Positions 6,749 through 24,258 of a stretch of DNA of 33,838 nucleotides are shown one piece after another. Under the pieces are notes generated by a model. It saw only the letters and a program-made list of their open reading frames with translations, was not told where the DNA came from and did no database searches. How positions within the stretch are numbered: position 1 is the stretch's first letter; each line of letters starts with the position of its first letter. The stretch comes from a virus. The stretch covers positions 1 through 33,838 of the IMG/VR virus record IMGVR_UViG_3300010354_000302, one strand, 5' to 3'. The translations under genes and the position numbers were made by a program.

Positions 6749-7417
6749 ATGCATGTTAGACTTTTATCCTACAGTCAACCTACTAGCGAGTTTGCCTCCA
6801 TGGGAATCACAGATTCCCAGGAGCTCATTGCCTTCTGTGCAAGAGTCTCGAACCCGAGTAATCAGTTCAATAACGACACCAGTAGCAAGCTCATCCGGTA
6901 CCTCGTACGACACAAACACTGGAGTCCGCTCGAGATGGTTTCAGCTTGCATGGAAATTACGACGACACGAGATATTGCAAGGCAAATCCTTCGTCACAGA
7001 AGTTTCAGTTTCCAAGAGTTTAGTCAACGATATGCAGACCCTACAAAAGATCTCAACTTTGTATTCCGAGAAGCCAGACTACAGGATACAACTAATCGAC
7101 AAAATAGTATAGTCACAGACGACGAAGATTTGCAAAAAAAGTGGGACAAATATCAAAACAACGTTATCAATGAAGCACGTATGGCCTATAATTGGGCTAT
7201 TGAAAACGGAATCGCTAAAGAGCAAGCTCGTGCTGTTCTACCAGAAGGACTGATAGAAAGTAAAATATATATGAATGGTACCTTACGTAGTTGGGTTCAT
7301 TTTATCGAATTACGTAGTGCGAACGGTACTCAAAAAGAACATCAAGAGGTCGCTAAAGCTTGCGCAGAAGTTATTTCTAAAATATTCCCTTTGTCCTCTG
7401 AATTCGTTTTATCATAA
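6749..7417 (+). CDS. thyX: Flavin-dependent thymidylate synthase ThyX
   Basis: 222 residues, normal for the family. It makes dTMP from dUMP using FAD and methylenetetrahydrofolate. The ThyX signature RHRx7S is present at 82-92 and continues to Arg94 (RHRSFSFQEFSQR), and the substrate-site region LRSWVHFIELR (179-189) is present. Bases about 6780-6960 are about 49% GC with G/C-ending codons, against about 28% in the 60 bases examined upstream (6601-6660), while the 3' half returns to AT-rich codon use. This suggests the 5' half was acquired by recombination. The 3' end overlaps the convergent radical SAM gene by 76 bases. It starts immediately after the previous stop codon. Confidence 0.96.
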   Translation: MHVRLLSYSQPTSEFASMGITDSQELIAFCARVSNPSNQFNNDTSSKLIRYLVRHKHWSPLEMVSACMEITTTRDIARQILRHRSFSFQEFSQRYADPTKDLNFVFREARLQDTTNRQNSIVTDDEDLQKKWDKYQNNVINEARMAYNWAIENGIAKEQARAVLPEGLIESKIYMNGTLRSWVHFIELRSANGTQKEHQEVAKACAEVISKIFPLSSEFVLS

Positions 7418-8574
7418 CTTAAATCTCCAGGAAATAGCGGAAGTTTAGTACCTGGAAATCTTTTTGGTATTTTACTATCGGCGCTACTTACACAACTCGA
7501 TGTTGTGCATACTTTTGGACTATTATATAACTTAAACCCAGTTTCAATATTACCAAGTGGCTCGTCGTGACAACTATAACTTCGTTTAATACTCCCGTCT
7601 GGTTCTCTAATAATTATTCCTCTATAGCCGCTAGAACATTCCCAATTTTCAAACTTATTAAAATTAAATGCATTGAATCTTTCTGCTTGATCCATATACC
7701 AAACTTTTTTATTCTTATCTACAAATTCTACTTGAAAATGTTGCGGAACGTTTGAATTTTCTTCTTTATAGAGTGGGTCAGGAGTTTTATAAAATTTTGG
7801 TTCGGGTCTATTTACTCTCTTAGTTTTAGATGCTTTAACTTCTGTAAATGCTCTTTGAGGCATTCCATTATGGAGTTTTTCTAACATTTCGTCAGTATAC
7901 CCTTTAACAACAAAACTAGCAGTAGGATCGCTTTGCGGTTTTAAAGTCACATTAATACCTTGTTCATGAAAGAATAGTGCGTTATTATAATCTCTTTCAA
8001 ACCAATCAGGAACCATAACCATATTAATAGTTACTTGAACATCATGTTCTTGACACAAAATTAGTTTATCAGCAAATTCTTGCATCTTTTCTTTAGTATT
8101 AACATGTTCTGTGTGTAAACTTGCTGTAATACTAGCACGATGAAAATTGCTTACAGCATGACAATATTTTTTTTCAAACCATTGTAAAGGACGACTCATA
8201 TTAGTAGTCATATGCACACTTGTATAGTTTGTATTTTCTACGTCATTATTTAAATATGATAATATATCTATATACCCTGGATGAAAAGTAGGTTCGCCGC
8301 CACTAAGACTAAAGTGAAAACTATTAAATCCTCTTTCTCTAGCTTGACGTTTTATTTCATCTATGGTTTTTAAACAGAGCTCAGTAGGTCTATGATCTTT
8401 AGTATCGCTTCGAGCATAGGGCCAACAATAACTACAGCGATAATTACAGTATCTTCCTAATAACCAACTAACCGTAAAAAGATCTTTATACAGCATTGTT
8501 CTCTGTCCAACTCTTACTAAGTCTTTAAAAGGTATCTTGGTAAAATCGTACGAACTTGTTTTTAAATCTGTCAT
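7342..8574 (-). CDS. Radical SAM enzyme with C-terminal auxiliary cysteines
   Basis: 410 residues from the ATG at 8574, which forms a TAATG overlap with the upstream stop; a TTG 15 bases earlier is not needed. The radical SAM cluster motif is Cys43-x3-Cys47-x2-Cys50 and the SAM-binding motif is GGEP at 92-95. Four more cysteines near the C-terminus (313, 335, 356, 361) could hold an auxiliary iron-sulfur cluster as in twitch/SPASM proteins. The last gene of the long minus-strand chain, its final 25 codons run convergently into thyX, so the C-terminal tail may be a recent extension. Substrate unknown; neighbours suggest a peptide or sugar modification role. Confidence 0.88.
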   Translation of the reverse strand: MTDLKTSSYDFTKIPFKDLVRVGQRTMLYKDLFTVSWLLGRYCNYRCSYCWPYARSDTKDHRPTELCLKTIDEIKRQARERGFNSFHFSLSGGEPTFHPGYIDILSYLNNDVENTNYTSVHMTTNMSRPLQWFEKKYCHAVSNFHRASITASLHTEHVNTKEKMQEFADKLILCQEHDVQVTINMVMVPDWFERDYNNALFFHEQGINVTLKPQSDPTASFVVKGYTDEMLEKLHNGMPQRAFTEVKASKTKRVNRPEPKFYKTPDPLYKEENSNVPQHFQVEFVDKNKKVWYMDQAERFNAFNFNKFENWECSSGYRGIIIREPDGSIKRSYSCHDEPLGNIETGFKLYNSPKVCTTSSCVSSADSKIPKRFPGTKLPLFPGDLSYDKTNSEDKGNILEITSAQALATS

Positions 8575-9323
8575 TATATAAATGGCCAATAGTGTTTTCT
8601 AAAATAGTGTGCAAAATCTTTTGTAGGTAGAACAAAATCATTTATGTCGAGTTTCACAGGAGCACCTTCTAACATTTCTAATATTTTTCGACTTAAAATA
8701 TAATTATTTTCTTCGCTCATATGACACTTTCTAGCATCAAAACAATCAGGTCTAGTTGCGGGTTTTTGTAAATTAAAATATTTATTTTCCATCATAGATA
8801 TATCAGCTAAATTAGAATAATTATAACCTGGAACACTATTACTCACTACCGGTAGTAATATTGTGTTTTGATGTTTATTTTTTATGTCTTGCACCATTAA
8901 CGGATGCACCAAATTTAAATATTCTCGATCTTCTATCACAGTAAAATACTGCTCAGAAGCATCAAGAAGTTTTTTTTCATAATCAGAATATTGATCTGGA
9001 TTTTTACGTATTTGTTTTTTCCTTTCTATTACTAGTGCAGGATTAATAAAACGGTCTCTACCGTCTTCCATCGATACTACAGAGGTTCTTCCATGTACAA
9101 AGGTAACCACGAATATTATTTTATCATATTTTTTATAATGTTGATCAAAAAGTTTTTTACTATAAAAAAGATCACTGCCCCCCTTACCCCAACTTTCTAT
9201 ATAATAATTTCCGGTTAAGTTTAGGTGTTCTATCCAACTTGGACCAACATCTTGAAATCCGTCCTCTTGCCACATGCAAACTCCATCTGCGAAACTATCT
9301 CCAAAAATACCTAATTTAATCAT
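8574..9323 (-). CDS. SGNH/GDSL hydrolase-like protein, copy 1
   Basis: 249 residues. N-terminus IFGDSFADG (6-14) is the GDS nucleophile block of SGNH hydrolases, and KGGSD (47-51) may be the Gly block. The C-terminus has a family-specific RKCHMSEENN (198-207) whose His could be catalytic. The ATG at 9323 is preceded by ggaaaag and overlaps the previous stop by eight bases; an upstream in-frame start at 9365 would extend it into that gene. By family knowledge such proteins are esterases, often acting on acylated sugars; the block V DxxH is not clearly present, so activity is uncertain. It is one of four tandem paralogues. Confidence 0.8.
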   Translation of the reverse strand: MIKLGIFGDSFADGVCMWQEDGFQDVGPSWIEHLNLTGNYYIESWGKGGSDLFYSKKLFDQHYKKYDKIIFVVTFVHGRTSVVSMEDGRDRFINPALVIERKKQIRKNPDQYSDYEKKLLDASEQYFTVIEDREYLNLVHPLMVQDIKNKHQNTILLPVVSNSVPGYNYSNLADISMMENKYFNLQKPATRPDCFDARKCHMSEENNYILSRKILEMLEGAPVKLDINDFVLPTKDFAHYFRKHYWPFI

Positions 9324-10089
9324 TACTTTTCCAATAACAATCGAATGTATTTTTTGCAGGTGCAAGAAAAATATTTACGTCAATTTCTACTGGTTTCCCC
9401 GCCAACCATTTTTCTATCTCTAAATAAAATAAATAATTATTTTCCTTTGTCATGAAACATTTTCTGTAATCTGAAGCATTAAGTTCTTTTAGATTATCTT
9501 CATATCTGTGTATAAATGGTTCATTAAAAAAAGTCTTAAGTTCTTTATAATTTATATCATACAGTGGTGCAGTCTTAGGTTCACGTTCACTATCAATAAA
9601 ACATGGAATCACAACTGTATTATAGTGAGATTGTTTCATGTTGTCAACGCACAAATATTGTGTATTGTAATCAAATTCTTTGTTCATAATATACATAAAA
9701 TAATTTTCAACTGCCTGAAGTTTATAACTATCAAACCTTATATTATTATCATATTTTATTTTTAATAAATTATCTATATAAGATCTAAGATTTACAGTAT
9801 CATCGAATGATGCAAAATGTTTGTGCCGTAAATTTAAATTTGATAATGAAGGTATATCTATAGTTATGCCGCCGGGACTTGGAATTAAAAAAATACTTTT
9901 ATCAAAATTGTGATATGTGTTACTCCATAATTTATAACAATACCTAAAAGTTGCATTTGGTTCACAAAAATTATGTACATTATATTTTTTAGATAAATGT
10001 TCTACCCACGATAAACCTATATTATCTTCATAATTCAACTCTTTATTAAGTACACCATAATGATTACCAAAAATAGCTATAGTTTTCAT
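9316..10089 (-). CDS. SGNH-like paralogue, copy 2, probably inactive
   Basis: 257 residues, clearly the same family as its neighbours by the GLSWVEHL block, the C-terminal RKCFMTKENN (209-218) and the closing aromatic tail. The GDS block is replaced by FGNHYG (7-12), so the nucleophile Ser is missing, and the conserved His of RKCHM is Phe. Both changes point to a pseudoenzyme or a binding subunit. The frame is intact and not shortened, so it is kept by selection or is a recent loss. Ribosome binding site is aaaggtg, unusually far (14 bases) from the ATG. Confidence 0.78.
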   Translation of the reverse strand: MKTIAIFGNHYGVLNKELNYEDNIGLSWVEHLSKKYNVHNFCEPNATFRYCYKLWSNTYHNFDKSIFLIPSPGGITIDIPSLSNLNLRHKHFASFDDTVNLRSYIDNLLKIKYDNNIRFDSYKLQAVENYFMYIMNKEFDYNTQYLCVDNMKQSHYNTVVIPCFIDSEREPKTAPLYDINYKELKTFFNEPFIHRYEDNLKELNASDYRKCFMTKENNYLFYLEIEKWLAGKPVEIDVNIFLAPAKNTFDCYWKSND

Positions 10090-10128
10090 TTTTAATAATT
10101 TTACACCTTTAATTATTTTAAGAACTTT

Positions 10129-10860
10129 TTATTTTCGTTTTCTGAAATAATGGTTAAAATCTTTAGTAGGGTTGACGAAATCTTCTATCTCAAAGTGAAC
10201 TTTATCTCCTTCTAAGAATCTCTCCATTTTTTTTCCTAAAATTAAATTATTTTCTTCGCACATATGACACTTTCTTGCTTCGTAATAGTCATCATCAGCC
10301 GGCATTTCCACTTCTAAATTCCAAAAACGAGCTTCTTTTCGTACAACTTCAATTAATGGTACGTCATTAAATTTATTTTTAATAAAACATGGAATTATAA
10401 TTATACTAGGAAACTTAATCTGGGCATCTTCTAACCATAAATTATGCAAGTCCGTATCATATTCTTCATCGATGACATACATATAGTAATTTTTAACAGC
10501 TTTTATTATACGTCTTTCTAAAAAATTATATTTTGTAATTTCTTTTTCGTATTTAGGTATACAATGTATATTGAAAAATTGAGAAATTGAAGTACTTTTA
10601 AAATTTCCTAACCCTCTAGTATCTACTCTTCCATAAGGAAAAGTTTCCATCCAGACTATTTTGTCAAATTTATGATAATGTTGATCGAACAATCTTTTAC
10701 TGAAATATGTATTTGTACCGGCTTCAGAAAAATTAGTTATTTCATACTTTCCAGTATTTCTTAAATAATCAATCCAAGAAGGACCAACATCTTTCCATTC
10801 ATTACCCCATAATGATGTATCATCGCCAAAACTGTCTCCGAATATACCTAATTTTACCAT
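10129..10860 (-). CDS. SGNH/GDSL hydrolase-like protein, copy 3
   Basis: 243 residues, with IFGDSFGDD at 6-14, DVGPSWIDYL (24-33) and EARKCHMCEENN in the C-terminal quarter. It is closest to copy 1: both share FDQHYxKxDKI and end in FAHYFRK/FNHYFRK. The start overlaps the upstream stop by seven bases. Predicted esterase or acyl-transfer role is inferred from the fold only; no signal peptide is visible, so it should be cytoplasmic. Confidence 0.8.
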   Translation of the reverse strand: MVKLGIFGDSFGDDTSLWGNEWKDVGPSWIDYLRNTGKYEITNFSEAGTNTYFSKRLFDQHYHKFDKIVWMETFPYGRVDTRGLGNFKSTSISQFFNIHCIPKYEKEITKYNFLERRIIKAVKNYYMYVIDEEYDTDLHNLWLEDAQIKFPSIIIIPCFIKNKFNDVPLIEVVRKEARFWNLEVEMPADDDYYEARKCHMCEENNLILGKKMERFLEGDKVHFEIEDFVNPTKDFNHYFRKRK

Positions 10861-11606
10861 TGATCTTTTCTCCAGTAATGAGATACAGGTTTTGATGGTG
10901 CAACAAATTTGTTAACATTAATGTACACAGGATCTCCATCTAGCCATCTTAACACATCTTGATAAAATATAAAATTATTTTCTTCGCACATATGACACTT
11001 TCGAGCTTCCGTTAATCCTTTCTTGTAAAAATCATTAAAAATATTATGATCAAAATTTTTCCAATTAAAAAGATATTTTAGTTCATTAAATCCAATTTGC
11101 TCCATAGGATGCCCAGATATTGTACGAAAACTATCTTGAAAACAAGGAATTAAAATAGTATCTGGTCTTAATCTTTGAACATGATCGACAAGAGTATATT
11201 GTGCATACTTATCATACTCTATGTCTTGTAAATAAGTATAGTAATCCTCTAATGCCTCAACATATTTCGATGCAATAGGATCATATTGAAAACGCAATTT
11301 AAGTCGATTTACACTTTCTACATTATGATGATGTTGACTAAAAGCATCATCATAATTAGGTATTGGAAGATATCTTCTACCTGGTTTAGTTAAGCAAAAA
11401 ATTATTTTATCATGCTGTTTGTAATGTAGTTTAAAATTTTTATAAGAAAAGTATAAACTGCTACCGCCTTGACATAAATTAGTAACTTGAAAATTAGTAT
11501 GTTGAGCTAATAATTCTGGCCAACCTGGGCCTACATCAGGAAATCGAATTGAATTAAAAGAACTAATCTCTCCAAAACTATCACCTACTATAAGTATCCT
11601 TATCAT
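10854..11606 (-). CDS. SGNH/GDSL hydrolase-like protein, copy 4
   Basis: 250 residues, first translated member of the tandem array. IVGDSFGEI (6-14), FPDVGPGWPELL, GGSS (46-49 region) and EARKCHMCEENN are all present, so the catalytic-looking residues are intact. ATGA overlap with the upstream dehydrogenase-like gene. The shared C-terminal pattern of the four copies (PxxINxFVxPxKxxxHYxRK) is not part of textbook SGNH proteins and may be a binding element specific to this family. Confidence 0.8.
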   Translation of the reverse strand: MIRILIVGDSFGEISSFNSIRFPDVGPGWPELLAQHTNFQVTNLCQGGSSLYFSYKNFKLHYKQHDKIIFCLTKPGRRYLPIPNYDDAFSQHHHNVESVNRLKLRFQYDPIASKYVEALEDYYTYLQDIEYDKYAQYTLVDHVQRLRPDTILIPCFQDSFRTISGHPMEQIGFNELKYLFNWKNFDHNIFNDFYKKGLTEARKCHMCEENNFIFYQDVLRWLDGDPVYINVNKFVAPSKPVSHYWRKDQW

Positions 11607-12151
11607 AATTTTTGTAATGGATCTATACTAATCTCGTTTATACAAATGTTAATTGGTTGATTTATTACCCATTGAATATATCTAGCTGCTTGTTCAATAT
11701 CTAAACAGCTTCTATTTGGATGTTTACTTTGAACATTACTTAAACTACCGAAACTTATAAGAGTAATTTTTGGTGCTTTATCCCATACGCCATTTATTCC
11801 CAAAGTATTACAATAATCTCTTAACGCCTTTTTCTCTGCATTATACAGCCAAGCACCACCTTTTTTTATTCTATCAGTAGTAGACCCAATACATATAATA
11901 TGTGGAGTTTTTTTATGTTCGTATAAAATTTTGTAAATTTGATCTAACAACACTGTTTGATTAAATTTCCATAAAGCAACATTATTTATTATAACATCAA
12001 AGTTTATTGACAAATTTGCAAATTTTATTTGACCATCTTGACTGGTTAGATCAAAACCGTTTACTCTACTTGCAAATGTAGCATCTGGATAAATTTTTTG
12101 TAATTCTCTAGCTATTCCATAATTAGGATTACCTGATATTAAGATTTTCAT
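11603..12151 (-). CDS. Short-chain dehydrogenase/reductase-like protein
   Basis: 182 residues, shorter than typical SDRs (about 250). It keeps a nucleotide-binding start (ISGNPNYGIA, 5-14, in place of TGxxxGIG), the NN pair of an NNAG-like motif (56-57), Ser90 in ICIGSTTD and the catalytic Tyr103-x3-Lys107 (YNAEK). A reduced NAD(P)-dependent oxidoreductase acting on a sugar or similar alcohol is the likeliest role. It overlaps the upstream radical SAM gene by 23 bases and the downstream SGNH gene by four. No Shine-Dalgarno is obvious, consistent with coupling. Confidence 0.75.
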   Translation of the reverse strand: MKILISGNPNYGIARELQKIYPDATFASRVNGFDLTSQDGQIKFANLSINFDVIINNVALWKFNQTVLLDQIYKILYEHKKTPHIICIGSTTDRIKKGGAWLYNAEKKALRDYCNTLGINGVWDKAPKITLISFGSLSNVQSKHPNRSCLDIEQAARYIQWVINQPINICINEISIDPLQKL

Positions 12152-13388
12152 AATTTAATATTTCGTTTAACTCGGGCAGAAGCTCCCAATAATCTTTGTT
12201 TTTTAAATTTCCCTGATCTTGAAAAAATTTTATAGCATCATCAATTTTTTCTTTATATCTTTGTTTACCTAATACGTGCTCCTTTACTCTAATTAAATAC
12301 TGCACTTGTTCTTCTCTAAATGAGCTATCTGGTAATGTTCTCATTACATCAGCCGCTTCATCTAAATATTTAGAATACGATGGAGGGCACAGAGCAGGCA
12401 TTAATTCAAATGGCCAAGTTACTAAGTTAGCTCCTACTTTCCATTTTTTTCCATAATCATTTAAATTATAATGTTGTGATGCTGTTTTAATAATCCATTG
12501 CAAAAGTTCAGGATATACTTTAACGTTTAGATTACTTAAAGTAGGTAGCAGATCTACTCTAAATATACTAGGCTCGGACATTATTAGATTTAAATTTTCT
12601 TCGAATCTTTGAAAATTTAAACCGTCTCTAATTATTTCTCCTTTAGTTCCGACTGCATCAATACTAGCAGTGATACTAAAGTTGTATTTAGAATTTTTTC
12701 TAACTACGTCTAGAAAGTTTTCAATAGTTTTTCGCTTAATATTTAAATTAGTTGTAAATCTAAAATTAACAAAACGTGAACTATTTTCTCCCCATGTTCT
12801 ATCATGTATAGATATTATATTATCTAAAATTTTAAAAATTTCTAAATCAAGAAACGGCTCACCGCCTAAAAAATTATAATTTAAAGGAGTAAAATCGAAT
12901 GTTAATTTACATTCTATATAATCATATAGAGATTTTAATATCGCTTCTTTCCAACTTACATCAATAATTGGAGTTATACCTTTTAATTTAGCCCATTCAC
13001 TACTTACTTCTTCTCTACAATAGATACAAGTTTGATTACATGTAGTACTGAGCATTATTTCTACATTTCTAGTATGATCAGCATCTAATAGACTATTTAA
13101 AGATGATTCTGTCCAATCCCTATATTTCCATTCGTTCCAATTTTGCCATATACTGGAAGGATGTGAATATTTACAATGACTACAAGCATCTGGAAAATCA
13201 TTTTTTTCAATAAAATACTTTTTATCATTCATCAAAAAATCATTTTTGATAAAAACATCTCGACCTAGTCTTTTAATATCATCTGATGTATGTAAAGATG
13301 GTTCTCTTTTACAACAATTTTTTATTTCTTTAGTAGGAATATTTACATTTATATCTGTCCATATTTTACTGCATACTAAATGTTTCAT
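12129..13388 (-). CDS. Radical SAM enzyme with N-terminal cysteine module
   Basis: 419 residues. Cysteines at 6, 25, 26, 69 and 72 precede the radical SAM motif Cys117-x3-Cys121-x2-Cys124; GGEP is at 175-178. The cysteine-first order matches the layout of proteins annotated as twitch-domain radical SAM proteins, where an auxiliary cluster is held before the barrel. Ribosome binding site aggaaaat precedes the ATG, one base after the nitroreductase-like gene. It is the most diverged of the three cysteine-first enzymes here (its cysteines are preceded by CSKIW rather than the CxxPW form). Substrate unknown. Confidence 0.87.
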   Translation of the reverse strand: MKHLVCSKIWTDINVNIPTKEIKNCCKREPSLHTSDDIKRLGRDVFIKNDFLMNDKKYFIEKNDFPDACSHCKYSHPSSIWQNWNEWKYRDWTESSLNSLLDADHTRNVEIMLSTTCNQTCIYCREEVSSEWAKLKGITPIIDVSWKEAILKSLYDYIECKLTFDFTPLNYNFLGGEPFLDLEIFKILDNIISIHDRTWGENSSRFVNFRFTTNLNIKRKTIENFLDVVRKNSKYNFSITASIDAVGTKGEIIRDGLNFQRFEENLNLIMSEPSIFRVDLLPTLSNLNVKVYPELLQWIIKTASQHYNLNDYGKKWKVGANLVTWPFELMPALCPPSYSKYLDEAADVMRTLPDSSFREEQVQYLIRVKEHVLGKQRYKEKIDDAIKFFQDQGNLKNKDYWELLPELNEILNYENLNIR

Positions 13389-13389
13389 A

Positions 13390-14502: not shown

Positions 14503-14503
14503 T

Positions 14504-15697: not shown

Positions 15698-16611
15698 TTA
15701 ATTTCCTTTAAAAATGTTAATAGTAAACCCATCTTAACACTCCATTGTTGACCTGGTATAGTTCCTTTATTAGTTGCATGTAATTGCACTGCATCAAATA
15801 CATAAGGAGCTCCTGGAATCCATTCGGCTGTAATTTCTGGAATAAGGCCAGTGAGTCGTGCTCTAGGAGTATAACTTAAATAAGTTTTATGATGAGCTTC
15901 ATCATAAGGAATAGAATTTAATTCTTTAGGAATAATACTGCCATCATTATCATAAAATTGAACTGTAGAATGATCGCTACAAATAGGATAAGTAGTAGCA
16001 GGCGGTGGCGCACTACTAGCATGGTTGTAAACATGGGCGAAATCGCAATGTCGCTGACGGAAAAAAACACCATGACTAACTGTATCTGGAGTATTTCCTA
16101 TCCACATTGGAATTAACACATTTCGCCACGGTGTGTATCTTCGCATTTCGTTATCTTCAGAAACTTTTCTTAAACTGTTTTCCCAATCAGATCTACGAGT
16201 GCTATCATTATGTAAACCATATTGACTAGGTGTTATTAAAAAATTGCCGCCAACCGCTGGACTTTGACTACATCCAGGAACTATTTTTTCTAACTTATCT
16301 ATAAACTTGGTAGCTGCTATATCTAAATTACCGCTGATAAAAATAGTTCCATTCGCATTATGACGTACATTATGACAGCCGGTAAATGCAAATGAATATA
16401 ACCAAGATAATTCGTTCGCGTCGAACATTACATCATGACATACAGCAGGCTCAAAAATTTTACGCATAAAATTAGTAGCAGTATCAGATGTTAAATCTGG
16501 CATATATGCTTCATATTGTTGATTATTGTTTTTCCAAAGAGATTTTAACTCTTCTACTTCATGTCTAATTGGATTTAAATTTTTTTGATCACCGTGAATT
16601 GAAATATACAT
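15694..16611 (-). CDS. 2-Oxoglutarate/Fe(II) oxygenase-like protein
   Basis: 305 residues. A candidate metal site is His134-x-Asp136 (YGLHNDSTR) with a distal His278 (VQLHAT) near the C-terminus, followed by Lys293 (SVKMGLLLTF) where most of these enzymes have Arg or Lys binding 2-oxoglutarate. Spacing and order fit the double-stranded beta-helix dioxygenases, similar to those often found in marine phages. A hydroxylation step on a sugar, peptide or nucleoside is possible. Start is two bases after the upstream stop; its own stop overlaps the next gene. A cupin-like non-enzymatic fold cannot be excluded. Confidence 0.65.
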   Translation of the reverse strand: MYISIHGDQKNLNPIRHEVEELKSLWKNNNQQYEAYMPDLTSDTATNFMRKIFEPAVCHDVMFDANELSWLYSFAFTGCHNVRHNANGTIFISGNLDIAATKFIDKLEKIVPGCSQSPAVGGNFLITPSQYGLHNDSTRRSDWENSLRKVSEDNEMRRYTPWRNVLIPMWIGNTPDTVSHGVFFRQRHCDFAHVYNHASSAPPPATTYPICSDHSTVQFYDNDGSIIPKELNSIPYDEAHHKTYLSYTPRARLTGLIPEITAEWIPGAPYVFDAVQLHATNKGTIPGQQWSVKMGLLLTFLKEIK

Positions 16612-16613
16612 TA

Positions 16614-18023
16614 TTAAATTCCGTTAAAAATATTTGCCATTTCTGGAAAAGTTTTGTAAAAACTTGTTTGTCTATGTTGATCAATTTTTTCTAAATATTC
16701 TTTCATTTCAGGCAATCTATTACTCCAGCTTTCACTACGCATAAAATTGATCATACCTCTTAAACGTTTTATACCATACTCATTGTTTAACCAAGTTTCC
16801 TTACTGACATTGTTTCTGTCTTTTTCTGAAATACACAACTGCCAATTGCTTTCAAACCAAGGTATAAAATCTTCATACTTTCTATGACATTCTTCTTTAA
16901 ACCAATCTGGTAGAACTTTTACGTTTAAAAAAGCTGGCCAGTAAACAAAATGATAATTTATTCCGCCGGCACCTAATGGCCAAATATTTATTTTTTTAAA
17001 ATTTTGAGACAATTTCCATTGTAAAAAATCTGGAATATAATATATATTAAGGGCTTGCACTGCACATGCTATGGTAACTTCAACATTATCTGAAGTTTTT
17101 TCGTCGAGTTGTCTAAAAACTTCTAAATTTCTATTCCATTTACTAGGATATCTTATATATTCGTTTCTGTGCATTATATCATCTACACTATAATGACATC
17201 TTACTAATTTAAAATGTTTCCATAAATCAAATAAATCCTCACGCCACTCGACTGCATTAGTATTATATCTGATCTCCATTTCCTTAGCATATCCTTGCCT
17301 TATACATTCTTCTAAGATGTCATAATGTTCATCTATTATTAAAGGCTCACCTCCTGCAAAATATAATTGCTTCATATGAGGTATTTGCTCATTAAATTGT
17401 TGCCAAAAGACAGGATTATTTTTATGCCAATTGTAACTGCTACCGTTAATACTTCCTTTATTATTCCAGTTCCATATTTGCTTTACATTATCGTTCTCTA
17501 AAGTGGGATAAACTGCTTGCCAATCTTTAATCCATCCTGAACTATCATGAGGACTACACATAATACATGCTAACTGACATTTAGTTCCAAATCTAAGATC
17601 GATATAATGTAGTTTAGGTTCTACACTGCCATCATTATTTGTATCATTAACTAGATCTTCTACATTTACACGTTTAGACCAATATTCTGTTTCCCATTGC
17701 CTTTTACTTCTGTGACCAGCGGATTCTTCTTTATAACATTTAAGACAACTAGGTGGTTGTTCTCCTTTAAGCATTTGTTGTCTAACATTTTTCATATATG
17801 TGCTATTCCAACTAGACTTAAAATCTGCTACATTTAAATTACTTGGTTTTCCTTCTTCATCCTTTAAGACTCCTACATTACCACCATGCAATTTTTTATT
17901 AGAAGCTGTTACGCTACTTGCATTAGCAGTGCAACATACTCTCATTTGGCCGTCAGGTCTTGTGCTAAGATGTATCCATGGAAGAATACAAAAAGTTTTA
18001 CTAGGAAGTTTATTTTCTATCAT
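16614..18023 (-). CDS. Twitch-type radical SAM enzyme, long form
   Basis: 469 residues. N-terminal module: Cys12 in FCILPWIHLS, Cys30-Cys31, and Cys93-x2-Cys96 (SCLKCYKEE). The core has DLRFGTKCQLACIMC (Cys149-x3-Cys153-x2-Cys156) and GGEP at 224-227. It is about 70 residues longer than the neighbouring paralogue, mainly from an insertion between the cluster motif and GGEP rich in Trp, Asn and Lys (about 165-215) and a longer C-terminal helical part. ATGA overlap with the upstream radical SAM gene. Substrate unknown. Confidence 0.9.
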   Translation of the reverse strand: MIENKLPSKTFCILPWIHLSTRPDGQMRVCCTANASSVTASNKKLHGGNVGVLKDEEGKPSNLNVADFKSSWNSTYMKNVRQQMLKGEQPPSCLKCYKEESAGHRSKRQWETEYWSKRVNVEDLVNDTNNDGSVEPKLHYIDLRFGTKCQLACIMCSPHDSSGWIKDWQAVYPTLENDNVKQIWNWNNKGSINGSSYNWHKNNPVFWQQFNEQIPHMKQLYFAGGEPLIIDEHYDILEECIRQGYAKEMEIRYNTNAVEWREDLFDLWKHFKLVRCHYSVDDIMHRNEYIRYPSKWNRNLEVFRQLDEKTSDNVEVTIACAVQALNIYYIPDFLQWKLSQNFKKINIWPLGAGGINYHFVYWPAFLNVKVLPDWFKEECHRKYEDFIPWFESNWQLCISEKDRNNVSKETWLNNEYGIKRLRGMINFMRSESWSNRLPEMKEYLEKIDQHRQTSFYKTFPEMANIFNGI

Positions 18024-19192
18024 ATAAATTGTTGTTTAAATGCATCGTATTTGGTACCACAAGTTTTGGCACAAATAGCTAATTTTCCTTCTGCACAACT
18101 AGATTGAGTCCAACTATCAGGAATAATTTCTTTAAAATATATACCGTTTACTATATTTTCTAATGAATTAATTTTTGCGTTTATTGAATCTTTGCCGACT
18201 TTGTCTATTGCTTTCCAAATTTGACTTCCTAATGGTTCCCAATACCATACATACATCTGTCCAGCTGTCCAACAACAAGGTTGTACTATTCCTTCTGCAC
18301 TGATATAAACAGATTTTTCTTCTGCAACTTTACATTTTATATCTACTGAATCCCAATATTTTTCCATAGGTTTCTTTTTTACAGGATCTAAAGTAAAGTA
18401 TTGTTTTGTTTGAATCTTTATAGCGTCTTTAGCAGTAGATGGTAAAATTTTAACAGAAGAAGGATCTGCACTAGATATTTTACTCATTTCATCTAAAGCA
18501 CTATTTCTATACTTTGGATTTGTTGGAGGTTGTAATAATGTAGTCAACCCTTTTCTATTTGCTGCTTGATGCATCTCTTTAGTTACACCGCTTACATTAC
18601 TAAAAAATCTTGCACTTTTTTTGTATTGAAAACTTTCGAACCCCATTTTTTTACTTAGAAGTTCCGCTTGTTCTACTTGGTGTTCATTATGGGCAAATAC
18701 TATAAAATCCCAGCGAGCCCTTCCACCTGCATCTATAAATGCTTGTGCATTTTCGATTATTTTAGAGTATACAGTATTTTGTCTATATAAATGATTAGTA
18801 TCTTCTAACCCATCAATACTGAACACAACATAACCTTTGTTTCCTAAAACTTTAGCTAAATTTCTCCACCAATCTGGTTTTTTAGCACTACCATTAGTGT
18901 GCATTGCTAAATTCATATTATTATTATGTTGTCTAAAATAATCAAAAACCTCCAAAGTATCTCTAGCAGCTATAGGGTCACCATAATTCCCGCACATATA
19001 CATTCTGTTAAGTTGTTTAATAAAACTAGGATGAAAAATATTTTTGCAGTCCTGTAAACTTAGTTCTTCATTTGGAAGCTGAGGATTGTCTTCGCCGCCA
19101 TTTATATTTCTTGCACACATTGGACAGGCAGCATTACACTTGTCTGTAATTTCTAAATGCACTGTTTTGATTTGATCGTAATTATAAAGCAT
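18020..19192 (-). CDS. Radical SAM/SPASM-like enzyme
   Basis: 390 residues. The radical SAM motif is near the N-terminus (Cys19-x3-Cys23-x2-Cys26 in KCNAACPMCARN); the usual GGEP is replaced by GNYGDP (68-73). C-terminal cysteines at 277, 296, 297, 356, 364 and 368 fit a SPASM-like auxiliary cluster domain, the type found in peptide-modifying radical SAM enzymes. This differs from the three enzymes with the cysteine module in front. A 52-base gap precedes it and no Shine-Dalgarno is visible, so its translation may be weak or separately controlled. Confidence 0.88.
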   Translation of the reverse strand: MLYNYDQIKTVHLEITDKCNAACPMCARNINGGEDNPQLPNEELSLQDCKNIFHPSFIKQLNRMYMCGNYGDPIAARDTLEVFDYFRQHNNNMNLAMHTNGSAKKPDWWRNLAKVLGNKGYVVFSIDGLEDTNHLYRQNTVYSKIIENAQAFIDAGGRARWDFIVFAHNEHQVEQAELLSKKMGFESFQYKKSARFFSNVSGVTKEMHQAANRKGLTTLLQPPTNPKYRNSALDEMSKISSADPSSVKILPSTAKDAIKIQTKQYFTLDPVKKKPMEKYWDSVDIKCKVAEEKSVYISAEGIVQPCCWTAGQMYVWYWEPLGSQIWKAIDKVGKDSINAKINSLENIVNGIYFKEIIPDSWTQSSCAEGKLAICAKTCGTKYDAFKQQFI

Positions 19193-19244: not shown

Positions 19245-19469
19245 TTAATCTATAATTAATTTTATATCTTTTGCAGGTCCAATTTTACTTGGTAAATCTC
19301 CATATTCTTTTACATAATAATATATCACTGCCTTATACCAATTTTGACTATTATGATGAGCTTGTTTATTGAACTGATAAATAAAATTATTAGTAGCTTC
19401 ATAAACTGCTAATGCCCTAGCAGCTTCAACTTGTAGTGTTCTAAGATCAAAATTATCTAAATTTGTCAT
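19245..19469 (-). CDS. Small hypothetical protein
   Basis: 74 residues, start overlapping the methyltransferase-like stop (ATGA). It is helical and has no Cys; the middle is NFIYQFNKQAHHNSQNWYKAVIYYYVKEYG. Lying directly before a SPASM-like radical SAM enzyme it invites comparison with precursor or recognition peptides of RiPP systems, but it shows no leader-core layout, and a small accessory subunit is as likely. No function assigned. Confidence 0.7.
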   Translation of the reverse strand: MTNLDNFDLRTLQVEAARALAVYEATNNFIYQFNKQAHHNSQNWYKAVIYYYVKEYGDLPSKIGPAKDIKLIID

Positions 19470-20317
19470 GGTCTTCCAATAAGCATATATCGCTTATAGC
19501 CTGTTAATTGTAACACACCCTCATACAAAAGTCTAGTCATAGGAAACTTTATCTTCATTTCTTCCATGCTGTGAATAGAATTAATGTGATCTTCTACTTT
19601 ATGTAAATTGTTTGATTGAATTACAAACAATGGATCGGTTTCTAGAGGACGATTAACAAATTTATGGTACCACCTTTCGTGAAAATGTTCAGCACTTGTA
19701 TTAATAATCAAATCAGGATTAGTTTTTTCATTAACTAGCATTCCATTAGTATAATTTTTAAGTTTGTATTCGCAACCGGTTCTATAAAGCCAACTCATAT
19801 CATTCAAATCAACTTCTGCAGATTTAATTTGATAATTTTCAATTTTATCTATATTAAAAATTTGATCACTCACTTTACATGCAGTTGGATCAATATCAAA
19901 TATACGTATTTTTCCATAACTAATGTCTGCATGATCCATAAAATATCTCAACTGACCAAACCATCCTGCTAGAAAAAAGACCATATTAAAATCTTTTCTA
20001 ATTTTTGCTAGTTCAGTTACTAGCCAAATTTTACTTTGTACTTGTCCTCTACTAAAAGCATCTTGTAGTAATGTAGGACTATAACCTTCCCTATAGTATT
20101 TGTGAAAAGTGTCCAAAATTTCATTGTGTGCATACTTACGTAACGTACCAATAAACTCAACTATACCCGCATTATCATTAAATTTAATAATAGGATTATC
20201 TGCATAAATCATATGCATTAAAAAGTCTACATATTTTTTTGATTCGACATCGTCGGCAAATGCAAGATAGTCTTCCAAACCGTGTAGCCAGCTTATATTA
20301 CTTGTATTTGTTTCCAT
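19466..20317 (-). CDS. SAM-dependent methyltransferase-like protein
   Basis: 283 residues from the ATG at 20317, preceded by aagga; the upstream in-frame ATG at 20359 would overlap the previous gene by 62 bases instead of 20. A Rossmann-like pattern is visible: VFFLAGWFGQL (113-123) as motif I, an acidic strand end FDIDPTACKV (140-149) as motif II and PDLIINTSAEHF (191-202) as motif IV. The first 100 residues are a helical domain not typical of a minimal methyltransferase. Likely acts on a small molecule, sugar or protein made by this island. Motif I is degenerate (AGWFG), so certainty is moderate. Confidence 0.65.
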   Translation of the reverse strand: METNTSNISWLHGLEDYLAFADDVESKKYVDFLMHMIYADNPIIKFNDNAGIVEFIGTLRKYAHNEILDTFHKYYREGYSPTLLQDAFSRGQVQSKIWLVTELAKIRKDFNMVFFLAGWFGQLRYFMDHADISYGKIRIFDIDPTACKVSDQIFNIDKIENYQIKSAEVDLNDMSWLYRTGCEYKLKNYTNGMLVNEKTNPDLIINTSAEHFHERWYHKFVNRPLETDPLFVIQSNNLHKVEDHINSIHSMEEMKIKFPMTRLLYEGVLQLTGYKRYMLIGRP

Positions 20318-20990
20318 CGTATTCCTTGTCAAATTGTTCTTTGAGCCACAAAAAATCATTAATCATTTTTAATGCTTCAATATTTCCTGTATTTTCTGAT
20401 CCATACACTGCACCAGCCTTTGCTCCTTTTATTGCATATTCACCGAATGGCCTTTCTTCTCCTTTTGAACACCAAATTTTTAATCGTTCATTGGTTTCAT
20501 CAGATTTTTGTCTGTCGATTACTTTACTTGCTAATTTACAACACTCTCTAAAGGCACTTCTCCAAGTACTAAATGCGTCTGTATTAAATGCAGTAATATT
20601 ACTAACTTCAAAAATAGGTTTAAATTTGTCACTGATACTGGTTGTCATATCAGGTTTAGATAAATCCATATTAATAGTTTTTAGTCTTGGAAGTAATTTA
20701 ACTCCACCATATCCATATTCTAAATCGTTAACAGGATTGCGACTTCGCCAAACATAAACATAGTCTTTATCATTAGGAATATAATCAAAATTAAAAGTAT
20801 CTAACACTTCTGCATCTCCATCTACTACATAAAACATTTCTGTTAATGTTTTTTTAGCTGCTTGTATATGAGCGTTGTGAATACCTTTTACCTTATGAAC
20901 CCTTTTAACATACGGAAATCTCCTTACTAATCTTTCATAATTATGATCCGCATTACTTTCGTCATAGCTAATGAATACAATATCAAACAT
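20298..20990 (-). CDS. Glycosyltransferase-like protein with DGD motif
   Basis: 230 residues. The N-terminus has ISYDESNADHNYERL then RFPYVKRVHKVKG, followed by VVDGDAEV in which Asp57-Gly-Asp59 resembles the metal/nucleotide-sugar site of GT-A folds. The C-terminal half has WRSAFRECCKLA and WCSKGEERPFGEYA. It is a paralogue of the next protein upstream. Start overlaps that gene by eight bases. I infer a sugar-transfer role; the family is one I only know as phage putative glycosyltransferases. Confidence 0.65.
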   Translation of the reverse strand: MFDIVFISYDESNADHNYERLVRRFPYVKRVHKVKGIHNAHIQAAKKTLTEMFYVVDGDAEVLDTFNFDYIPNDKDYVYVWRSRNPVNDLEYGYGGVKLLPRLKTINMDLSKPDMTTSISDKFKPIFEVSNITAFNTDAFSTWRSAFRECCKLASKVIDRQKSDETNERLKIWCSKGEERPFGEYAIKGAKAGAVYGSENTGNIEALKMINDFLWLKEQFDKEYDGNKYK

Positions 20991-21909
20991 CTTGAACTAT
21001 TAATTTACTTTTCATCCTAGGCGGATTTATATATACTGTTTTGAAAAAATAACTCTGTTCTTTGTCTAAAATTTTAGGACAAATTATATCTATATTATCT
21101 TTAAGCAAGTCACCGTAAAATTCAATATCTTTTTCTACTTCATTACTATCTAAGTTTACTTTTTGTTTAAATATTTCATTTAAAACAGAAAAATCTCTTA
21201 CATTAACATAATCCCAATCTGTACAATTTGTCATATAACATCCTTGTCTAGCTCCTAAAATTGCATACAGACCATTTTCTATATCTGATCCTACAGTCAT
21301 CCATATAAATAATCTATGTAAGTTTTTCCAATGTATTTGTTTCATTAACGATATTTCTTTACTGGCTTTAGAACCTTCTAACAATCCCATCTTAACACCT
21401 TCACGAAAACCGGCTCTCCAAGCTTGTTGAGGACTGGCATTATTATATACATCACTCATACATTTGTCCATTTGTACATAATTAATATCCCAACAAAAAT
21501 CAACTTGTGTTTTAGAATTATCTGATTCTGCGTTTTCGTGTGTTTTCATATTAAGTACTAATTCGGTAGGCCAACATTTTATTCCTCCATTGCCATAAAT
21601 TAATCCATTAATTACGTTTCTTGCTCCAAAACTAATTACACTATTTTTATCAACTTCTTGATCTACAAACGTAACTTCTTGAGTTAGTAAACCAGGGTAT
21701 ACAATATTATCGCCATCAATAATGATAACTCTGTTTGTTTCTGCCAGTTTAGCACATGCCTTATGCGCAGCATCACTACCATGGACTCCATGCACTCTTT
21801 TAGCATAAGGAATCTTTTTAAGTAAATTATCATAGTTAAAATCCGCATTCGGTTCATCATAACTAAGATATACTACATCATGTTCAGAAAATTTAATCTT
21901 CTTTGTCAT
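20983..21909 (-). CDS. Glycosyltransferase-like protein with DGD motif, longer paralogue
   Basis: 308 residues. LSYDEPNADFNYDNL (15-29), IPYAKRVHGVHG and IIIDGDNIV (Asp65-Gly-Asp67) line up with the shorter neighbour, as do WRAGFREGVKMG and the GNGGIKCWP element (compare GYGGVKLLP). The C-terminal about 70 residues have no counterpart in the neighbour. Start overlaps the previous gene by 17 bases. Together they look like a duplicated pair that has diverged in acceptor or donor choice. Confidence 0.65.
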   Translation of the reverse strand: MTKKIKFSEHDVVYLSYDEPNADFNYDNLLKKIPYAKRVHGVHGSDAAHKACAKLAETNRVIIIDGDNIVYPGLLTQEVTFVDQEVDKNSVISFGARNVINGLIYGNGGIKCWPTELVLNMKTHENAESDNSKTQVDFCWDINYVQMDKCMSDVYNNASPQQAWRAGFREGVKMGLLEGSKASKEISLMKQIHWKNLHRLFIWMTVGSDIENGLYAILGARQGCYMTNCTDWDYVNVRDFSVLNEIFKQKVNLDSNEVEKDIEFYGDLLKDNIDIICPKILDKEQSYFFKTVYINPPRMKSKLIVQDV

Positions 21910-22303
21910 TTTTTATAACCTTTATTAATACATTTTTATCTATATGCTTCATTAAAGAATCTTTATTATCCACTATCATACAATCTACTAAAAAGTTAAT
22001 GTTGTCAGGCATGTGCTCATACAATTTAACTATACATTCATTAAAATCGATCTTTTCAACTATATTGATGTTTAATTTTTCAAGATTAGAAAATTTTAAA
22101 TTATCTAAAAAACTTTTTTCTTGTATATATTGAACATTTTCTTTGGAACATTTTACTATAAAATTATCAAATTTTTTCTTTCCTGTTATAAAATCTCGTA
22201 CATTTTCTTCTACAGATTCAATATAATTACCCTCTATCTTTTTTTCATTCGTAATAGAATAAATTTTTCCTAAAGAATCATAGTAAATGTACCATGTCTG
22301 CAT
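21893..22303 (-). CDS. Hypothetical protein in the glycosyltransferase cluster
   Basis: 136 residues with no recognised motif. It begins MQTWYIYYDSLGKIYSIT and has an alternating charged/hydrophobic pattern that suggests an alpha/beta fold. It overlaps both neighbours (26 bases at its start, 17 at its end). Very Lys/Asn/Ile rich, like its neighbours, so no sign of foreign base composition. Function unknown; position suggests it serves the sugar-transfer proteins on either side. Confidence 0.7.
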   Translation of the reverse strand: MQTWYIYYDSLGKIYSITNEKKIEGNYIESVEENVRDFITGKKKFDNFIVKCSKENVQYIQEKSFLDNLKFSNLEKLNINIVEKIDFNECIVKLYEHMPDNINFLVDCMIVDNKDSLMKHIDKNVLIKVIKNDKED

Positions 22304-23117
22304 ATTTTTTCTCTATTTTATGTATAATATCATTAGTTAAAAAGCTTTCATCTACATAATGAAAAACACCATTTTGTAAAAAATTAGATATTCTTAATTC
22401 TAAGTCTTCAGTAAATTCTATTAGACAAGCTTCATACCAATGATTTGGAACACTTTCCCAAGATTGTAATTCTGTTTTCATATGTGTAAAGTGCAAAGGC
22501 GAAGCCCGCAAATTGATATCTAATAATTTGCAAATTATAGCACTAGATACATCCATACTAACAAATTTTTGTGTATAATAAGGGATATGTTCTTGATAAA
22601 ATTTGATATAATTTCTTGTTATAATTTCTAACCATTTGTAAAATTCGTAGGATTTTTTATCCTTTTTAAAATAATGCACTCCAAAATATACATTTGGCAA
22701 ATAATTATGTATGAAAGGTTTTCTGTTAATTTTGTCATTTATTATATTATGTCGATAATCGTATACTGTAGTAGTAAAAGATAAAGACCTAGATGTTAAA
22801 TAATCCCACCAATAATCATTAGATGACAATAATAACACATCAGTATCATAGACTAAATTATAATCGAATGGAGAACTGTATATTAATTTCCATCTGTTTT
22901 CTATTTTCCAATCGCTTTTACTGGCATCATCGCCCCAAGGAATAGGAACAATATGATCAAAAGCTTTAAGATAATTTACAGGAACAGGATCATTTGTAAT
23001 TAAACAAGTTTTGTTATATCTATTAAAAATTTTAATTGTTAAAGCTGCGACATATGCTTGAGTAACATAATCAATTTTTGACGTATTTTGTGCAAAAAAC
23101 AAATGACCTTTATTCAT
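22278..23117 (-). CDS. Glycosyltransferase-like protein with DTD motif
   Basis: 279 residues from the ATG at 23117, which has aaggtg upstream and forms ATGA with the previous stop; the GTG at 23126 lacks a ribosome binding site. The motif PFDYNLVYDTDVLLL puts Asp91-x-Asp93 at the end of a strand, as in GT-A glycosyltransferases. VTQAYVAALTIKIFN near the N-terminus fits the donor-binding helix. FVSMDVSSAIICKLL and SPLHFTHMKTELQSW follow. A diverged paralogue lies directly upstream. Acceptor unknown. Confidence 0.65.
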   Translation of the reverse strand: MNKGHLFFAQNTSKIDYVTQAYVAALTIKIFNRYNKTCLITNDPVPVNYLKAFDHIVPIPWGDDASKSDWKIENRWKLIYSSPFDYNLVYDTDVLLLSSNDYWWDYLTSRSLSFTTTVYDYRHNIINDKINRKPFIHNYLPNVYFGVHYFKKDKKSYEFYKWLEIITRNYIKFYQEHIPYYTQKFVSMDVSSAIICKLLDINLRASPLHFTHMKTELQSWESVPNHWYEACLIEFTEDLELRISNFLQNGVFHYVDESFLTNDIIHKIEKKYADMVHLL

Positions 23118-23917
23118 GCTAAACACCTTAATAAACTATATTTGTTCATCACATGGACGTCAGTATCGGTTGTTCGGACGATTGAGGAATCGTTTAACAA
23201 ATCTTTGTCTTTAATTTCAAATAAACACCATTTGTCTTGTAGTTCAATTATACTATTTTTATCTGTAACATAATGTAATTTTCCTGGAATACTATAACTT
23301 GTCTCATCAGGAATAAATCCATTTAAGATGTGTAAGGCGATACTGAAAGCAAAATCATTTCTAAATTTATTATCTACTATTTGATACAATTCTTTAAAAT
23401 ATTCCCAATTATCTTTTATATAACGTACATAACTAAAAAATAAATTGTTCTTATTTGTTTTTTTAAAGAAAACTACAGTGGCCCAATAAAACGGAATAGA
23501 AAAATTATTAAGGTATATAAATTCATTAGAGTTCGCGTCAGCAATATCATAAGAATGTTTAAACATTAATAAGTCCTGATTTAATGTAAAACATTTTTTT
23601 AGAAAACTACTTTGTATAACATAATCAACGTCTAGAACTAAAGTGTAATCGTATGGTGATAAATTAAAAACTTCTGATCTGTTAAAATTTTTCCATTGTA
23701 ACTTTTTGCTTTCAACACCGTCTCTAAATGTTTTAAAATTCACAGACAAATCTTCTAATTTTATAACATTATCAAATGAATTATCAGTTATTTCTGTATC
23801 TGTAATTAAAGTTACCGGCAACTCTAAAAAATAATGAATTCGTTTTGCCGCGTCCTTAGCAAGTTTAATGTAATCTATACCATTGTTATAAGCTAATAAT
23901 ACAACACCTTTAGTCAT
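23114..23917 (-). CDS. Glycosyltransferase-like protein with DVD motif
   Basis: 267 residues. SPYDYTLVLDVDYVI carries Asp96-x-Asp98 in the same context as the DTD protein downstream; GVVLLAYNNGIDYIKLAKDAA and the FRNDFAFSIALHILNG helix also align. ATGA overlaps at both ends. It resembles a family of phage GT-A-like proteins; the enzyme activity is inferred from the motif. It is the second gene of the accessory island after the tail-fibre genes. Confidence 0.65.
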   Translation of the reverse strand: MTKGVVLLAYNNGIDYIKLAKDAAKRIHYFLELPVTLITDTEITDNSFDNVIKLEDLSVNFKTFRDGVESKKLQWKNFNRSEVFNLSPYDYTLVLDVDYVIQSSFLKKCFTLNQDLLMFKHSYDIADANSNEFIYLNNFSIPFYWATVVFFKKTNKNNLFFSYVRYIKDNWEYFKELYQIVDNKFRNDFAFSIALHILNGFIPDETSYSIPGKLHYVTDKNSIIELQDKWCLFEIKDKDLLNDSSIVRTTDTDVHVMNKYSLLRCLA

Positions 23918-24258
23918 TTTATTACACTTTCGATTACATTATTGTTGTTTAAGGTTTGGTATTGATAAAATAATCGATTGTTTGCTTGGATATGTCTATC
24001 TACTAAAGATGTTAAGAATACATCTAAATTTTCTATTTTAATTGGAACGTTATTTTCATCTAGTATTATTGCCGAGTCATCGTTGGATAACTCCTTTAAA
24101 CACTTTATATATGAAATAAGTTCTTTTGTAGCTTTGAAAACACCGTTATTTTCAAAATAGAATAAATTTAGATCGTACTCTTCAAAAAGTATTCGTTTTT
24201 GAAGAGCTACCGATGACATTTTTTTAGAAATTTCAAAAAATTTTGATAAATCGTTCAT
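23914..24258 (-). CDS. Conserved small protein downstream of tail fibres
   Basis: 114 residues, strongly helical: MNDLSKFFEISKKMSSVALQKR, FKATKELISYIKCLKEL and a middle strand pair (SAIILDENNVPIKIENLDVFL). The first gene after the tail-fibre block and preceded by a hairpin. Similar small proteins sit next to fibre genes in marine T4-like phages and could be fibre assembly chaperones, but that is a position-based guess. Its stop overlaps the next gene (ATGA). Confidence 0.75.
   Translation of the reverse strand: MNDLSKFFEISKKMSSVALQKRILFEEYDLNLFYFENNGVFKATKELISYIKCLKELSNDDSAIILDENNVPIKIENLDVFLTSLVDRHIQANNRLFYQYQTLNNNNVIESVIK

Follow-up and report, generated by a model that had tools for sequence, protein, structure and literature searches.

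The window analysed here is the whole of a 33.8-kb virus record (IMG/VR IMGVR_UViG_3300010354_000302; 33,838 nucleotides), in which an island of twenty genes, rich in radical S-adenosylmethionine enzymes (rSAMs) and glycosyltransferase-like proteins, follows a set of tail-fibre genes on the minus strand (positions 7342-24258). The plus strand, up to position 7417, encodes an RNase H/5'-exonuclease, a MoxR-type ATPase, a DUF2201 metallopeptidase/VWA protein and ThyX. On the minus strand, six fibre/structural-type genes run from FIB6 to FIB1 and lead into the island, which ends convergently at ThyX. As an initial annotation made from the sequence had described, with strand and coordinates correctly given, the genes behind the fibre genes mostly overlap at their start and stop codons: 15 of the 19 internal junctions overlap, two have gaps of 1-2 nt, and real gaps measure 39 and 52 nt, with a spacing of 53 nt between FIB1 and the island. 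The arrangement is not due to chance, since it is seen again in many divergent phages. The features on the minus strand are as follows.

7342-8589, minus: RS1, rSAM with a C-terminal Cys-rich (twitch/SPASM-like) region, conserved anchor at the far island end (PF04055, 52.7 bits)
8574-9365, minus: SG1, SGNH-like (GDSF and KCHM motifs; no Pfam match)
9316-10089, minus: SG2, degenerate SGNH-like (GNH, KCF)
10129-10860, minus: SG3, SGNH-like (motifs)
10854-11606, minus: SG4, SGNH-like (motifs)
11603-12151, minus: SDR, short SDR-like protein (YxxxK; NCBIfam E 0.008)
12129-13388, minus: RS2, N-terminal-twitch rSAM, variable cassette (NF033640, 160 bits, cut-off 170)
13390-14538, minus: NTR, nitroreductase with an inserted domain of giant cyanophage fibre proteins (PF00881, 23.8 bits)
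14504-15697, minus: RS3, N_Twi rSAM (NF033640, 392 bits)
15694-16611, minus: OXY, candidate Fe(II)/2-oxoglutarate oxygenase (invariant H134, D136, H278; no family match)
16614-18023, minus: RS4, N_Twi rSAM, core (NF033640, 428 bits)
18020-19192, minus: RS5, rSAM/SPASM, core (PF04055, 35.6 bits)
19245-19469, minus: u74, small three-helix protein (AlphaFold pLDDT 91.6, no beta strands)
19466-20359, minus: MT, methyltransferase-like (Spermine_synth E 0.013, sub-threshold)
20298-20990, minus: GT1, GT-A-like glycosyltransferase, core (conserved D57/D59)
20983-21909, minus: GT2, GT-A glycosyltransferase, core (AlphaFold and Foldseek)
21893-22303, minus: x (u136; ~190 aa in relatives), between GT3 and GT2 (position)
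22278-23126, minus: GT3, GT8-like glycosyltransferase (profile matches glycogenin, E 4e-4)
23114-23917, minus: GT4, glycosyltransferase-like (DxD motif only)
23914-24258, minus: u114, opens the enzyme operon (present in 75 of 77 FIB1 loci with room)
24254-24294, minus: hairpin over the u114 start codon (-10.2 kcal/mol, z -2.34)
24312-25292, minus: FIB1, last fibre gene, candidate acceptor (locked to u114-GT4-GT3-x-GT2)
25305-26768, minus: FIB2, fibre with a Peptidase_G2-type C-terminal domain
26817-28649, minus: FIB3, fibre/baseplate-like, with relatives in jumbo phages such as Atu_ph07
28659-30797, minus: FIB4, tail-collar fibre (PF07484)
30794-31408, minus: FIB5, structural-type protein (phrog_11259, E 2e-69)
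31429-31436, minus: TATAAATA, late-promoter-type motif, 20 nt ahead of FIB5
31462-33837, minus: FIB6, large structural-type protein, truncated at the window end (position and size; no family match)

The island recurs in more than 100 uncultured T4-like contigs of up to 400 kb. A scan begun from RS4 returned 130 relatives in viral contigs, and the shared frame is FIB2-FIB1-u114-GT4-GT3-x-GT2-GT1-MT-u74-RS5-[variable]-RS4-[variable]-SDR-RS1, which often abuts ThyX-u106-u209-vWA, as it does in the window. Each scan was evaluated on its 80 nearest loci, so that the fractions apply to this lineage rather than to all phages. The RS5 family is present in most RS4 loci, MT in 56/80, u74 in 41/80 and SDR in 27/80 (median identity 67%, and often directly ahead of RS1 in other phages). 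Further scans begun from GT1, RS1 and FIB1 take away the bias towards RS4: around GT1, 22 full loci contained RS5 (19), GT3 (19), FIB1 (17) and RS4 (15), and around RS1, 50 full loci contained RS4 (33), SDR (26) and RS5 (23). Co-occurrence with fibre genes in other T4-like phage genomes, the check proposed in the initial annotation, is seen in the scans begun from RS4, GT1 and FIB1. The island is layered, with a near-invariant FIB1-glycosyltransferase unit, the trio RS1, RS4 and RS5 together with GT1, GT2 and MT, and a variable cassette of further rSAMs, SGNH-like proteins, oxygenase and nitroreductase. The T4 portal (PF07230) was detected in 12 of 20 long island-carrying records, including those of 400, 383 and 243 kb; the portal region lies outside the window, and the T4-type assignment comes from these relatives. 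Among 50,697 deposited phage records, tblastn with RS1, GT1, GT3 and FIB1 found no match at the thresholds used, nor did tblastn with one relative's GT4 and one relative's x gene or megablast with the island, and RS4 and NTR found remote matches only.

The tightest association is that between the fibre gene FIB1 and the glycosyltransferases. In a scan that starts independently of the enzymes, the order FIB1-u114-GT4-GT3-x-GT2 was near-invariant in the 79 loci found through FIB1; where the contig left room, u114 was present in 75/77, GT4 in 74/76, GT3 in 72/74 and GT2 in 62/64 loci, and an rSAM followed in 42 of the 47 loci that offered 7.5 kb or more. The link to the fibre genes that had been proposed from the window is borne out by this unit, and also by the fusion of the nitroreductase to a fibre-type domain described below. 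The four glycosyltransferase-like proteins likewise hold up, on evidence that differs from one to the next. The AlphaFold model of GT2 (pLDDT 87.6) matches GT-A glycosyltransferases in Foldseek, although an extra helical region holds the overall TM-scores down to only ~0.3; one weak structural match is a glycosyltransferase of mycobacteriophage Che8, a phage reported (Freeman, 2023) to have a glycosylated virion. GT1 is a paralogue of GT2, and in a fused bacterial protein (locus L096) the half that corresponds to GT1 passes Pfam Glycos_transf_2. A GT-A fold with DxD is indicated for GT2 by the fold and for GT3 by the glycogenin/GT8 profile (E 4e-4), while GT4 is assigned by the DxD motif.

All five rSAM open reading frames contain CxxxCxxC, in agreement with the initial count. 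RS1, RS3 and RS5 exceed the PF04055 cut-off, RS4 is borderline (29.4 vs 29.5 bits) and RS2 is weak (E 0.028). Against the curated cut-off of 170 bits for NCBIfam NF033640 (N_Twi_rSAM), RS3 (392 bits) and RS4 (428 bits) pass, RS2 (160 bits) falls narrowly short, and RS1 (40 bits) and RS5 (53 bits) score well below it. Assignment to the anti-viral viperins (pVip) was rejected (best NCBIfam score 39.6 bits vs a cut-off of 180; PADLOC 38.3). RS1 shares 75-85% identity with its counterparts in many phages and 54-66% with those in Bdellovibrionota. Across 40 records, relatives carry 4-24 PF04055 domains per record, sited in variable parts: 18 in a 172-kb and 23 in a 243-kb record, both with the T4 portal, and 24 in one 76-kb fragment. 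The richest of these (24 in 76 kb, 23 in 243 kb) are represented by loci L034/L035 (records G020, G037) and L074 (G003), and some open reading frames of ~850 aa in the records of L015 and L017 hold two rSAM domains each.

The remaining enzyme labels vary in strength. The methyltransferase-, oxygenase-, dehydrogenase- and nitroreductase-like genes are present as first annotated, with only the nitroreductase above a profile threshold, and barely so (23.8 vs 23.5 bits in Pfam); the others are sub-threshold or based on motifs, such as the invariant HxD...H of OXY. The four SGNH-like genes are paralogues labelled by the motifs GDSF and KCHM.EENN. The claim of four SGNH-like proteins stands by motif for SG1, SG3 and SG4, which keep the block I GDS and the block V His motif; SG2 lacks both and, with GNH and KCF in place of the catalytic motifs, is probably inactive. 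None of the four matched an SGNH/GDSL profile in Pfam up to E 0.1, and a PDB profile search was negative. The AlphaFold model of u74 found no match in the PDB, and a role for u74 as the recognition element (RRE) of ribosomally synthesized and post-translationally modified peptides (RiPPs) was rejected, as the three-helix model lacks the strands of the RRE fold. A RiPP cluster is likewise not indicated by a precursor peptide, none being seen on inspection by eye. In NTR, the insert (approximately residues 72-190) matches tail-fibre PHROGs, and a single giant cyanophage protein contains this domain three or more times. Among nitroreductases of relatives, the fibre-type domain is either inserted (the window, L114, L009 and L057) or N-terminal (L224 and L212), and it is missing from many. 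Since two architectures have acquired it, the domain may serve for docking to the fibres.

Predicted promoters separate the enzyme operon from the fibre genes. With expectations taken from mononucleotide shuffles and counts inflated by related sequences, the T4-late-type motif ATAAATA was found in 52 of 68 distinct FIB3>FIB2 gaps (2.8 expected), in 14 of 35 distinct FIB2>FIB1 gaps (1.5 expected) and in 19 of 98 FIB1>u114 gaps (3.3 expected), the last of which carry a sigma70 promoter matching at least 10/12 positions in 51 of 98 cases (1.9 expected). L337, L339 and L340 are among the relatives in which the T4-late motif stands in this gap in place of the sigma70 promoter. A strong hairpin signal is confined to the FIB1>u114 gap (mean z -2.47 vs 0.2 to 0.4 in other gaps), and the predicted transcription start falls between the hairpin arms in 49 of the 51 sigma70 gaps. 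The Shine-Dalgarno sequence lies in the 3' arm in 64 of the 76 gaps having one, vs 50 expected from shuffled upstream sequence, which is suggestive, if not overwhelmingly so, of sequestration by the hairpin; instead of an RNA switch, the element could be a dyad operator spanning the -10 box. In the window, the hairpin is kept (z -2.34) and no TTGACA is recognisable. The motif TATAAATA has 2 exact copies in the window vs 10.3 expected, and across 1.4 Mb of viral loci (L005-L084) it is ~3.5-fold depleted (80 vs 281 expected under a first-order model), consistent with its use as a late promoter. A T4-late motif driving the whole island was rejected, given this depletion and its location at the fibre genes.

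In T4, the genes e and soc have ribosome sites hidden in a hairpin with the promoter inside it, so that only the proper transcript is translated. The promoter of the island is mostly of the sigma70 type, and it would be late read-through rather than early mRNA that is silenced: in most relatives, to judge by these motifs, the enzyme operon is probably expressed early and the fibres late, with late read-through mRNA silenced by the hairpin. The initial description of the island as linked to the tail genes is supported; what speaks against a simple reading of it as one tail operon is the mostly separate sigma70 promoter and hairpin of the enzymes, the late-type promoters of the fibres, and the presence of RS1, RS4 and RS5 with GT1, GT2 and MT on Bdellovibrionota chromosomes, mostly without FIB1.

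These chromosomal copies came from a genome scan for RS1 by short exact peptide patterns, which may miss further bacterial holders. It yielded 25 loci, 20 of them in genomes nearly all labelled Bdellovibrionota (one, titled only 'bacterium', groups with them), and several sit among ordinary bacterial genes on contigs 200-937 kb long. RS4 and/or RS5 stand alongside RS1 in all but three of these loci, those three on short contigs, and GT1, GT2 or MT homologues are often present. The close chromosomal relatives found for this set lie in Bdellovibrionota. Among the genes next to the trio are ones for Pfam Glycos_transf_2 enzymes and, at certain loci, for sugar-nucleotide dehydratases. One Bdellovibrionales chromosome (L096:6891-18972) carries a GT2::GT1 fusion, RS1 and RS4, followed by FIB1-u114-GT4-GT3-x-GT2 in phage order, among housekeeping genes identified by reading (rnhB, rplS, trmD, rimM, pheS and pheT). 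FIB1 occurs in this one of the 20 genomes and was rejected as a general Bdellovibrionota partner; owing to this rarity the FIB1-u114-GT4-GT3-x-GT2 block looks like a unit transferred between phage and bacterium. The initial annotation had set independent occurrence elsewhere among unrelated neighbours against its proposal; this was found for the rSAM trio in bacteria and not for the FIB1-glycosyltransferase block.

In a quick RS1 tree with long branches, window-type phage copies group with five phage-like binned contigs in one clade (SH-aLRT 100) that is separate from the copies of Bdellovibrionota, and a second phage group is more distant. A recent capture of RS1 from a bacterium is thus unsupported, and the tree may be read as an old exchange between phage and bacterium in either direction. 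Apparent relatives binned in Rickettsiales, Gammaproteobacteria, Chloroflexi and Acidimicrobiaceae metagenome-assembled genomes look, from the genes they carry and from where they fall in the tree, like phage contigs. Several other features were noted beside the bacterial trio. A Glycos_transf_2-type protein cluster adjoins it at nine loci (e.g., L103:11278-13368, L107:12180-14102 and L091:11675-13273), and pilus-type genes or prepilin-like proteins were seen by eye at four Bdellovibrionota loci (L100:1-5375, L098:8614-9135, L102:14141-15772 and L106:13805-15823). A transposase-like gene lies between RS5 and RS4 in L088 (12290-13171) and is missing from the near-identical L089 locus. In two Bdellovibrionales loci (L103:10826-11275 and L105:4726-5562), a repetitive protein with FWLPNEVRKL..YKYGRKFYVYVL repeats adjoins MT.

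The initial annotation proposed a multi-step pathway that modifies tail fibres or the host envelope. A multi-step pathway is plausible, and we favour, at a rough probability of 0.45, a phage-encoded system that builds and tailors a variable glycan on the fibre protein FIB1. The near-fixed block argues for FIB1 as acceptor or partner, the conserved ends and variable middle for a variable end product, and the glycosyltransferase context in both phage and bacterium for sugar chemistry. In the model that we infer for the rSAM chemistry, the step order, the sugar identity and the function, GT3 and GT4 would start a short glycan on FIB1 and GT2 and GT1 would lengthen it; the core rSAM, SDR and methyltransferase-like enzymes may change sugar carbons by oxidation, epimerisation, dehydration or C-methylation. 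The cassette enzymes (more rSAMs, SGNH esterase/acyltransferase, oxygenase and nitroreductase) would vary the product phage by phage, much as the central part of an O-antigen locus varies. The enzymes of most relatives would be made early from the sigma70 promoter, and the hairpin at the ribosome site would shut translation from late read-through mRNA; with fibres expressed from late promoters, the donor or enzyme pool would be ready once FIB1 is made. The decoration may tune adsorption or protect the fibre, and Bdellovibrionota may apply this core to surface structures of their own.

Several observations weigh against fibre decoration. The rSAM trio occurs with GT1/GT2 and without FIB1 in 19 of the 20 bacterial genomes, and two FIB1 loci (L301 and L310) lack the u114-GT4-GT3-x-GT2 block. 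Since the FIB1 scan covers the 80 loci closest to the window's FIB1, FIB1-like proteins without glycosyltransferases may exist at a greater distance. The island yielded no recognisable gene for nucleotide-sugar biosynthesis, and neither an acceptor residue nor a glycan nor a shift in virion mass is known. Probable early expression also fits modification of the host at least as well.

Modification of the host envelope is the main rival, though we still regard it as unlikely: the early enzymes would change the O-antigen, the capsule or a surface filament, as superinfection exclusion or receptor masking, with FIB1 as a neighbour or co-evolving adhesin. The operon's own sigma70 promoter and the hairpin blocking late translation fit it, as do the core genes on Bdellovibrionota chromosomes, often near Glycos_transf_2 enzymes, and such a role has been proposed for pelagimyophage glycosyltransferases (PMC7029224). 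It sits poorly with the near-absolute linkage to FIB1 and the apparent transfer of the block as a whole, and neither a membrane flippase nor an O-acetylase was recognised in the island. Less probable by some way is a tailoring of protein filaments shared by phage and predator, in which the core would modify a phage fibre and a predator pilin or phage-like adhesive fibre, with rSAM chemistry on peptide residues and not on sugars. Peptides are often the substrate of twitch/SPASM rSAMs, L098, L102 and L106 have prepilin-like proteins adjoining the trio, and L100 has a Tad/Flp-type pilus cluster near it (all by eye). Bdellovibrio moreover uses phage-like fibres (PMC10769870). The best small-partner candidate, u74, is however a three-helix protein without the strand-containing RRE fold, no precursor peptide was seen, and the pilin link is not general. 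That a small-molecule or peptide natural product is made during infection seems very unlikely: the mix of rSAM, methyltransferase-like, nitroreductase and SDR enzymes is typical of biosynthetic clusters, but no scaffold enzyme, precursor or exporter was recognised, and the glycosyltransferases are locked to a fibre gene. DNA hypermodification with sugars, known in the T4-type group (PMC6024577) and compatible with the presence of glycosyltransferases, is most improbable, since the island lies with fibres and has a bacterial chromosomal counterpart, and since GT2, the one enzyme tested, is of the GT-A type. T4 DNA glucosyltransferases are GT-B enzymes.

The components of glycan-based fibre decoration have precedents. 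In the available text of PMC7029224, pelagimyophages, which are likewise T4-like aquatic phages, have, between VrlC and gp14, a variable host recognition island with tail fibres, several glycosyltransferases (GT8 commonest) and rSAM cassettes near the fibre regions, for which no function was established; a fixed FIB1-glycosyltransferase unit, a Bdellovibrionota counterpart and a promoter-hairpin are not described in that text, and the RS1, GT1, GT3 and FIB1 of the present island are unmatched in deposited phages. The T4-like Campylobacter phages CP220 and CPt10 have an rSAM cluster of 11-12 members, termed highly unusual and without established function, which includes an exchangeable block of five with an amidinotransferase in each block; the accessible part of that report (PMC2853527) describes no link to fibres or glycosyltransferases, and relatives of the present island reach 24 rSAM domains per record. 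The paper on Bdellovibrio MAT fibres (PMC10769870) places phage-like fibres in a bacterial group that holds the core genes and does not mention rSAM or glycosyl modification. The Moraphage lineage (PMC12619734) was set aside, as its text does not mention radical SAM.

Phage virion glycosylation, T4-like rSAM clusters, and glycosyltransferases in host-recognition islands are each already known. A mycobacteriophage glycosyltransferase is reported (Freeman, 2023, cited in PMC12619734) to decorate virion proteins of the capsid and tail-tube rather than a fibre, and no rSAM tailoring is known to accompany it. The initial view that this is not a described system holds for the union of these elements with a locked fibre gene, a nitroreductase fused to a fibre domain, a Bdellovibrionota counterpart and a promoter-hairpin, which was not found in the literature searched (with few subscription papers or preprints covered); it does not hold for rSAM cassettes near fibres or rSAM clusters in T4-like phages (PMC7029224 and PMC2853527, as far as their available text goes).

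The host range of phages is usually put down to the sequence of their fibres. Should chemistry performed by phage enzymes set it as well, host prediction based on sequence misses a layer. It is conceivable, if rather speculative, that a combinatorially variable rSAM-based tailoring of fibre glycans or fibre peptides is common to large T4-like phages and predatory-type Bdellovibrionota, with cassette exchange altering the chemistry of an adhesive fibre and not its protein sequence. For uncharacterised rSAM enzymes, the island is a natural source both dense and diverse, and because a candidate substrate, FIB1, can be named for them, what they do can be tested directly. The Bdellovibrionota, predators for which few phages are known, also emerge as likely hosts, or gene partners, of a phage lineage that is widespread and uncultured, the host part being a lead.

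On the plus strand of the window, the gene for the DUF2201 metallopeptidase/VWA protein (4089-5258) carries the PHROG label HNH endonuclease, and the PHROG is probably mislabelled.

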